DNA of 43,415 nucleotides from a virus. Shown piece by piece: positions 19,636 through 21,293 of the stretch. A model generated the notes under the pieces. That model had not been told where the DNA came from and did not search any database. It was given only the letters and a program-made list of their open reading frames with translations. Where the stretch lies: positions 1-43,415 of IMG/VR virus record IMGVR_UViG_3300044527_000682; one strand, 5' to 3'. The first letter of the stretch is position 1, and each line of letters starts with the position of its first letter. Both the position numbers and the translations under genes were made by a program.

Positions 19636-20116
19636 GGTCTCATACTCAGGTCTTATCATTAGAACAAAAGGTACGGTTGCATGACCTGTAACGCAACGAA
19701 GGTATATCAATGAACGTTGGTCAATGCCTGATTCGCTGAGTTCTAACAGTGGCTTCAATGGACTACCCTACTAGAGGATGCTATAAACGGGGTGCTTTGC
19801 ATACTACGTTTCCATTGTCGTAACAGTAAAATCCATGTAAATGGGTTGGGTACAAAAGTTTTGTATCAAGTGCTCGATCAAAATGAAAAGGGTAAAGGAT
19901 CGAGGGTATGTTAGAAACTAATTCACTGAGGTTTTTAACAGGTATTAAGTTACCAATGCTGTATACGGTGTATTTCTTGCAATAGCAAGTTTTGGGGCGA
20001 TATAGTCAAACCTACCTGAGTAAAATACATGAAGTGAACCCTTTCCACGAGGAGTGGGCATTAGCATCATGCTAGGGGAATATAAACGTCAATGTTTTAT
20101 ATTTACCCCCTTTTTT
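19636..20116 (+). ncRNA. Candidate structured RNA, about 480 nt, ending in a terminator
   Basis: No credible reading frame exists here. The plus strand is dense in stem-loops: AATCCAT/ATGGGTT with a GTAA loop (19830-19847), TACAAA/TTTGTA (19851-19865), CTCGATC/GATCGAG (19873-19904), GGTA/TACC (19941-19954) and CTTGC/GCAAG with an AATA loop (19976-19989). A long GC-capped stem with a T6 run closes the region (20075-20116). GGACTA (19760-19765) and GATATAGTC (19999-20007) could pair and resemble the P7 strands of group I introns, but no split gene surrounds them. I cannot match it to tmRNA, RNase P RNA or 6S RNA. It is probably transcribed from the gp46/nuclease unit. Whether it is a stable RNA or a structured 3' UTR is open. 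Confidence 0.5.
20075..20116 (+). terminator. Intrinsic terminator of the gp55-46 unit/RNA candidate
   Basis: GGGG and AATATAAAC (20075-20087) pair with GTTT, TATATT and CCCC (20094-20109), with two small bulges and a 6-nt loop. T6 follows at 20111-20116. The T run is on the plus strand only, so it acts on rightward transcripts. Confidence 0.75.
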
Positions 20117-20166
20117 GCATACGCATCATGGGTTTAAAAACCAAACAATAATAAATTCTGAAAGAA

Positions 20167-20235
20167 CATTTTATTGTGTTTCGGTGAACGAATGTGAGCA
20201 GGAAACACAATAAAATAGATGACCGTAGGTCATCT
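20167..20235 (-). terminator. Tandem-hairpin element, copy 1, after gp51
   Basis: Read on the minus strand just after the gp51-like stop: an 8-bp hairpin (AGATGACC/GGTCATCT, loop TAC; plus-strand 20217-20235) is followed at once by a perfect 15-bp stem, ATTTTATTGTGTTTC with GAAACACAATAAAAT (arms at 20202-20216 and 20168-20182), enclosing a 19-nt loop with TCAC twice. A second copy with the same order lies at 26639-26717 on the plus strand. It probably ends the gp26-gp51 transcript. Confidence 0.65.
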
Positions 20236-20244
20236 CTACACTAT

Positions 20245-20475
20245 CTAGAAGAAAGGTAATCCACTTTTCTTAGTAGTTTCTAAGTTTGATTCTATGATTT
20301 TGTTAATAATGTCTGACTCCTGTGGAGAAAGATTCATAGCATCAGTATAGGACAATGCACCTCTCATATACCAACTCATTTTTAATGCATTGGACTTGAT
20401 AGTTTTAACTTCATCATCCATTGATTGTACAAGCTTCTCTATTTCTTGTTCAGTAAGATAGAGAAGCTTTACACG
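20245..20475 (-). CDS. 51: gp51-like hub assembly frame, reached by -1 frameshift from gp26
   Basis: The frame encodes about 76 residues, with the start RVKLLYLTEQEIEKLV, the core KMSWYMRGALSYTDAMNLSP and the end NLETTKKSGLPFF. I recognise this as the short gp51-type baseplate hub assembly protein of marine T4-like phages. It has no ATG, GTG or TTG between the start of the open frame and codon ATG at 20419-20421, which would remove about 18 N-terminal residues. The frame opens exactly at the slippery site T TTT TTC (20475-20481) that precedes the gp26 stop, and a TGA in this frame lies directly upstream of it. I therefore read it mainly as the extension of gp26 (predicted fusion of about 349 aa). 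A short product from 20421 (58 aa) is the alternative. Confidence 0.75.
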   Translation of the reverse strand, partial: RVKLLYLTEQEIEKLVQSMDDEVKTIKSNALKMSWYMRGALSYTDAMNLSPQESDIINKIIESNLETTKKSGLPFF

Positions 20476-20481
20476 AAAAAA
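20431..20481 (-). promoter_or_regulatory. Programmed -1 frameshift signal between gp26 and gp51
   Basis: On the minus strand: slippery heptamer T TTT TTC in the gp26 frame (20481-20475), 5-nt spacer GTGTA (20474-20470), then a perfect 12-bp stem AAGCTTCTCTAT (20469-20458) with ATAGAGAAGCTT (20442-20431) around a 15-nt loop. The gp26 stop TAA (20471-20469) spans the spacer and the first base of the stem. All three parts of a classic -1 frameshift signal are present with normal spacing. Confidence 0.75.
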
Positions 20482-21293
20482 TCAGTAATATTAAATTCAA
20501 CCTTTTGTTGATAATTATGTTGGCACTTAATACAAGTAAATCTTAGTGGTTTACTAGTACTTTCATCACGTAACTTTATACTGTTGTCACGTATAATATT
20601 GTATATTTTCTTATCACAATTCTGTAAGAAATCATGTATGAATGCTTGATCAGTTACTGTAGTCTCAGGTGTACGAATATATTCAATGTTTCTTGCAAGT
20701 ATCTTTTGTGTCAATACATTCATGCGTTTTAATAAATCACTTGCTGCTTTATTCTTAGCATCACCATCTATTAAACCATCTAATTGTGCTAATCCACGTT
20801 GTATTTCAAACTGTTCCGCACTATTGTTATTATTATCTTGATAGGTTAAATGACAAAACTTAATGGCTAAATCACCTAGTGGTAATTCCTGTGAATAATC
20901 ACTAATAGATATCTCTGACAATAGTTTTGACAGTTTTATACCATATCGCATGGTTTCTTTACAGTTAGGACATGCTGTGTCCACATCCATTTCTTCACCA
21001 TTGGTAGCAATTCTTATGGCAATTAATATGGTTTCAATGTCTACATTGTGTAATTTCCATGGGTTTTTAATCGATGGAATACAACTTTGTATAATGGAAA
21101 CTACTGCTGAACCATTAAATAATGCATCAGGTGTACGTGCAGTAATCTCATCATTGGCTGTCATTGGGTATACGGGAAGTTCTCCTGTGGCAGGAAAATC
21201 AATGATTTCACGTTCATAATCAGTGCCACTTGGTAGCTTAATATGTATTGCAGGTCTGCGAAAATACTGTTTTAGTGGATTATTGTCCATCAT
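20469..21293 (-). CDS. 26: Baseplate hub protein gp26 (T4_baseplate family)
   Basis: This 274-aa protein has the layout of the T4 gp26 family: N-terminal FRRPAIHIKLPSG and PVYPMTANDEI.ARTPDALFNG, then VVSIIQSCIPSIKNPWKLHNVDIETILIAIR cut into helices. Two CxxC pairs (CPNC near residue 106 and CIKC near 256) suggest a zinc site. In T4 gp26 is needed to build the baseplate hub. The ATG (second Met also possible) has a good GGAG site upstream. The gene is divergent from the tape-measure gene, an arrangement that fits a tail-assembly chaperone role. Its last codons form a -1 frameshift site leading into the gp51 frame. Confidence 0.88.
   Translation of the reverse strand: MMDNNPLKQYFRRPAIHIKLPSGTDYEREIIDFPATGELPVYPMTANDEITARTPDALFNGSAVVSIIQSCIPSIKNPWKLHNVDIETILIAIRIATNGEEMDVDTACPNCKETMRYGIKLSKLLSEISISDYSQELPLGDLAIKFCHLTYQDNNNNSAEQFEIQRGLAQLDGLIDGDAKNKAASDLLKRMNVLTQKILARNIEYIRTPETTVTDQAFIHDFLQNCDKKIYNIIRDNSIKLRDESTSKPLRFTCIKCQHNYQQKVEFNITDFFV

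Follow-up and report, generated by a model that had tools for sequence, protein, structure and literature searches.

Phages lambda (gpG/gpGT) and P2 (E/E') each produce a short protein together with a low-level extension of it by -1 frameshifting near the 3' end of the gene (Xu et al. 2004), and a short form with a -1 extension has been reviewed as conserved in long-tailed phages "except T4" (PMC5009743). The T4 proteins gp26 and gp51 are both catalogued as hub assembly chaperones; gp51 is needed for tail or hub assembly and is absent from the virion (PMC3004832). According to papers that cite it, Vladimirov et al. 2022 identified T4-like chaperone genes: the PRFect paper reports from that work T4-like phages that do without frameshifting and have a short gene alongside a long fused one (PMC10885494), and the Adele paper cites it for poly-T -1 signals in the chaperone genes of T4-like phages (PMC12846349). 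The short/long pair in these accounts presumably corresponds to gp26 and gp51. A poly-T -1 signal also ends the short chaperone of Vandenendeviridae and Andersonviridae (Adele, Moogle; PMC12846349), as in the locus described here, although the motif there is GTTTTT and the gene stands in conventional order before the tape measure gene, both unlike the present case. The idea of a frameshift is thus not itself new, and the jumbo-phage case joins an already known type; the statement of a preliminary description of this DNA that no frameshift was known for gp26/gp51 has been overtaken by Vladimirov et al., as that work is represented in the citing papers. Our literature search returned no paper on a frameshift in this jumbo group, which is weak evidence, subscription journals lying mostly outside the search.

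The window, by which we mean the whole stretch of 43,415 nucleotides analysed (IMG/VR record IMGVR_UViG_3300044527_000682), carries the features listed in Table 1. The gp26-like protein scored 61.7 bits against PF12322 in a Pfam scan (curated cut-off 24.5); PF12322 and phrog_150, the latter labelled "baseplate hub", represent the T4 gp26 family, and a GGAG is located 10 nt 5' of its ATG. On the minus strand the 3' end of this frame reads ATT ACT GAT TTT TTC GTG TAA, so that an X_XXY_YYZ heptamer lies in frame near the end of the ORF. The -1 frame is closed by a TGA at 20484-20482, codes from the slip site without a start of its own (its earliest start codon is the ATG at 20421), and ends with the C-terminus TKKSGLPFF and a TAG at 20247-20245; joined at the slip site, the predicted fusion comprises 271+78 = 349 aa. 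Five nt past the heptamer, within the interval of ~5-9 nt looked for in a stimulatory structure, begins a stem with 12 of 12 positions paired around a 15-nt loop. The RNA fold of 20490-20420 has a predicted energy of -18.8 kcal/mol (z -3.9), which none of 200 shuffles equalled in stability. Among the 33 ORFs of at least 100 aa in the window, the gp26-like ORF alone combined a heptamer within its last 15 codons with a -1 frame open for at least 50 codons. Every position given in the preliminary description was reproduced, from the heptamer, spacer and both stem arms to the TGA, the first ATG, the C-terminus and the fusion length.

Table 1. Features of the short/long chaperone locus and its divergent neighbour, in window coordinates
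Feature	Position	Strand	Evidence or remark
gp26-type short chaperone (putative), 274 aa, ends DFFV	20469..21293	minus	PF12322 E 1.1e-16, phrog_150 E 3.2e-17
Slippery heptamer T_TTT_TTC, in gp26 frame	20475..20481	minus	heptamer class kept in 101/101 related junctions
Spacer GTGTA, 5 nt	20470..20474	minus	between heptamer and stem
Stimulatory stem (predicted), 5' arm AAGCTTCTCTAT	20458..20469	minus	pairing and RNA fold
Stimulatory stem (predicted), 3' arm ATAGAGAAGCTT	20431..20442	minus	pairing and RNA fold
-1 frame extension, 78 codons from slip site, then TAG	20245..20481	minus	predicted C-terminal domain of long form; probable homologue of T4 gp51 C-terminal domain
Terminator-like hairpin directly 3' of -1 frame stop	20217..20235	minus	3 terminator-like sites in region against 0.8 expected in shuffles
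Probable tape-measure protein with glucosaminidase domain, 1053 aa	21362..24523	plus	divergent neighbour

The probable tape-measure protein carries its glucosaminidase domain (PF01832) at the C-terminus, and its gene and that of the chaperone are transcribed in opposite directions, away from each other; in phage RaK2, the gene at the equivalent position is annotated as similar to tape measure protein. On the other side, between the -1 ORF and a RusA-like gene, ~600 bases (19636-20240) hold no plausible gene and no Rfam match, and a perfect 15-nt inverted repeat (20168-20182 / 20202-20216) adjoins the terminator-like hairpin; at the matching position, several jumbo relatives likewise leave several hundred bases unannotated. 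Rfam and tRNA scans of the whole window returned no matches.

Searching the phage collection at DNA level yielded no relatives, and they were obtained by protein search. A tblastn search detected gp26 relatives in 62 phage records (24-38% identity), most of them from jumbo myophages with enterobacteria, Pseudomonas, Xanthomonas, Agrobacterium and Vibrio as hosts, and ~80 further loci were found in IMG/VR. A set of 101 junctions was analysed, of which 59 representatives shared less than 90% gp26 identity with one another (median pairwise identity 38%). The heptamer and the -1 frame, whose alignment across relatives had been proposed as a check, were kept in all 101 junctions, with the slippery heptamer in frame and 1-11 codons from the gp26 stop; it reads T_TTT_TTC in 58 representatives and T_TTT_TTT in the remaining one, Xanthomonas phage XacN1, and the codon that precedes the Phe pair ends in T in 59/59. 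Because 71% of the remaining Phe codons of these genes are TTT, the combination TTT-TTC would be expected in ~21% of Phe pairs; the representatives share kinship and do not constitute 59 independent trials. The conservation of the heptamer, as judged from these counts, is not chance. Were the break instead a sequencing or assembly error that splits one long gene, for which the one continuous frame of T4 gp51 is the sole point in favour, it would have had to occur identically, at the identical codon, in each of 101 junctions drawn from numerous independent sequences, among them many finished phage genomes; this explanation is exceedingly improbable, and an artefact was rejected on the conservation of the break.

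In order to assess the downstream structure across the family, 75 nt beginning 2 nt past the heptamer were compared with 396 control windows taken within gp26 genes; the mean z was -3.2 for the 59 representatives and -0.28 for the controls (Mann-Whitney p 2e-18). The 5' arm begins mostly 5-6 nt past the heptamer (range 3-12), and the 3' arm follows 8 to 55 nt further on, varying by lineage. Pairing between the arms of the same sequence averaged 9.6 nt, as against 7.0 nt when arms were swapped among sequences (7.5 at most over 100 permutations). A stem some 6 nt past the heptamer was kept in most relatives, as the preliminary description had proposed to verify, but it is not universal: ~10 of the 59 representatives, mostly in the enterobacterial group (Munch, GAP32 and RaK2 among them), show no clear stem and have z values near 0 or positive. 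Those phages may possibly use other stimulators or frameshift at lower efficiency.

The same data bear on transcriptional slippage, in which RNA polymerase would slip on the T6 run to give a mixture of mRNAs. The site is indeed a homopolymer, and that of XacN1 extends to T7; six T, however, is short for efficient polymerase slippage, and slippage of tandem tRNAs fits three observations: X_XXY_YYZ is exactly in phase with the gp26 frame, the T run is constant in length, and the stem follows after a near-fixed spacer of 5-6 nt. We consider a polymerase origin of the -1 product very unlikely.

Directly past the slip site, the -1 frame encodes FFRxxLL in nearly all junctions, before any start codon. 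If the -1 ORF were a separate small gene, translated from an internal start (ATG 20421 in the window) and coupled to the gp26 stop, the residues upstream of the first start would not be expected to be conserved, as they are. Many relatives do contain some ATG, GTG or TTG in the -1 frame, and a separate gene is how the ORF appears in public records; the position of the first such codon, however, ranges from codon 3 to codon 38 among relatives, Pseudomonas phage PAC2 has none across its entire -1 frame, and a Shine-Dalgarno-like motif precedes only 1 of 58 candidate internal starts, as against 33 of 58 gp26 starts. In addition, T4 gp51 is a covalent fusion. In favour of a separate gene is Pseudomonas phage Cygsa01 (L114, 2072-2982), a distant relative whose single PF12322 gene has no heptamer and overlaps the next frame by TAATG; this is apparently a loss of the frameshift. 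Relatives with a separate, well-initiated gp51 and no slippery site, which had been named in advance as the finding that would speak against a frameshift, were approached only by Cygsa01 and by the Straboviridae, whose gp51 is encoded whole by a gene of its own, with the fusion already built in. We regard independent initiation of the -1 ORF as improbable, and frameshifting as the preferred reading. The joined product is annotated in 0 of 15 phage records: the public records of PAC2 and RaK2 have no entry for the -1 ORF, and most of the others enter it as a hypothetical protein in its own right, with an arbitrarily placed start.

We then compared the predicted fusion with the proteins of T4, in which genes 26 and 51 are divergent. 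PF12322 matches T4 gp26 and residues 1-201 of T4 gp51, which has ~48 residues more; the two are therefore paralogs, of the same family as the gp26-type protein of the window, and the two-part make-up of gp51 matches the predicted fusion. No slip site was found at the end of T4 gp26. Profile alignments were carried out with virtual frameshift products of intermediate phages, namely cyanophage Sf-FS3, two Rhizobium phages and Aeromonas phage phiAS5, which, like the 595-kb phage LR756511, have T_TTT_TT[C/G] with a -1 extension. The gp51 family aligned to the fusions of Sf-FS3, the Rhizobium phages and phiAS5 over 240 columns, across the junction (E 1.1e-18), and by its C-terminal part alone at E 2e-12; these fusions in turn aligned to the jumbo fusions across the junction at E 1.2e-18. 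The window fusion is thereby linked to gp51 through other fusions, as a long form with a gp51-type C-terminal domain. Direct similarity between the C-terminus of gp51 and the jumbo -1 domain is weak (E 6e-5, 34 columns), and their probable homology depends in part on the intermediate sequences. On these alignments, T4 gp51 is a gp26-type domain followed by the C-terminal domain that these phages place in the -1 frame.

The -1 frame of the window had initially been called gp51-like, and it does match the C-terminal domain of T4 gp51. It corresponds to that domain only, T4 gp51 being not merely the -1 part but a gp26 paralog joined to it. The -1 ORF of the window has no family of its own in Pfam or PHROG, and scans of the -1 domain of the family against both gave chance-level matches only, except for one uncharacterised PHROG in one member. 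The earlier label is explained by the cyanophage and Cygsa01 records, in which the small -1 ORF bears the name "baseplate hub assembly catalyst", a term that traces to gp51; for its gp26 label, the Cygsa01 record cites Delftia phage phiW-14.

Two genes for the two forms are present in T4 and in the other standard members of the Straboviridae tested, whereas the window has one gene with a frameshift signal. PF12322 occurs twice in T4 but a single time in every one of the 16 other records that it matched; SCTP-2 fell below the HMM threshold and has one gp26 relative by tblastn. Five smaller single-gene phages have one copy each, besides a weak partial match in RL38J1, and RB43 and phiP4-3, both Straboviridae, have two copies, as do all three T4-like contigs that were scanned, although gp51 is broken in one. 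In that T4-like IMG/VR genome (L125), gp51 appears split into two adjacent PF12322 pieces after ~codon 120 and is either broken or mis-sequenced. phiAS5 (L113, 2435-3214) has a single frameshifting gene and no second copy, although it belongs to the Straboviridae, T4's own family. In a tree with long branches and a midpoint root, gp26 and gp51 of the Straboviridae group together (95/94) and phiAS5 adjoins them (83/81). Tree placement and copy numbers together favour an ancestral frameshift and a later duplication. On balance we lean towards a history in which a single frameshifted gene was ancestral in T4-like tail chaperones and gave way on one occasion, within the Straboviridae once phiAS5 (Chrysonvirus) had branched off, to the separate genes 26 and 51; where the single gene persists, the 5' arm of the stem would have stayed near-fixed while the 3' arm moved repeatedly (8 to 55 nt away).

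The gp26-type domain and the -1 domain were modelled apart, with mean pLDDT of 92.4 and 89.5, respectively; the -1 domain is predicted to be all-helical (helices 2-8, 11-39, 45-49 and 53-73). A PDB search with both models gave no significant match and no solved chaperone; the -1 domain showed a weak fold match to the Moogle tape-measure chaperone (E 1.7).

We reasoned that the locus encodes a tail assembly chaperone made in short and long forms by -1 frameshifting, with a probability of about 0.9. The majority of ribosomes would terminate at the UAA, one codon past the slip site, and release the 274-aa short form; a minority would be paused by the hairpin 5 nt downstream and slip by -1 on U_UUU_UUC, where both Phe-tRNAs could re-pair, to yield the 349-aa long form with its extra helical domain. 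By analogy with lambda gpG/gpGT, the tape measure protein would be coated by numerous copies of the short form and a few of the long form, whose extra domain would recruit tube subunits; T4 would yield the equivalent two products from duplicated genes, gp26 as the short and gp51 as the long form. The signal and the coding of the -1 frame are conserved, as is the stem in most lineages, and the fusion is homologous to T4 gp51; that ribosomes slip, with what efficiency, and that the products serve as chaperones is what we infer. The proposal that gp26/gp51 may be the T4-like version of the chaperone frameshift pair is accordingly strengthened by the conserved junctions and by the gp51 homology.

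Counting against a frameshifted chaperone is the orientation of the gene, which is divergent from the tape-measure gene and not upstream of it. In lambda-type systems the chaperone gene typically lies directly upstream of the tape measure gene on the same strand; the locus further differs from them in its strong downstream stem and in showing no detected sequence relation. The lambda slip sequence also differs from the heptamer found here. We therefore suggest that the locus works like the lambda G/GT chaperones by analogy, and do not class it as a lambda-type member.

For the annotation of these phages, the predicted long chaperone is missing from the 15 records examined. The literature has singled out T4 as lacking an otherwise nearly universal tail-chaperone frameshift (PMC5009743); as its large relatives retain the frameshift and T4 gp51 resembles a hard-wired version of the long product, the T4 exception becomes a traceable gene duplication.
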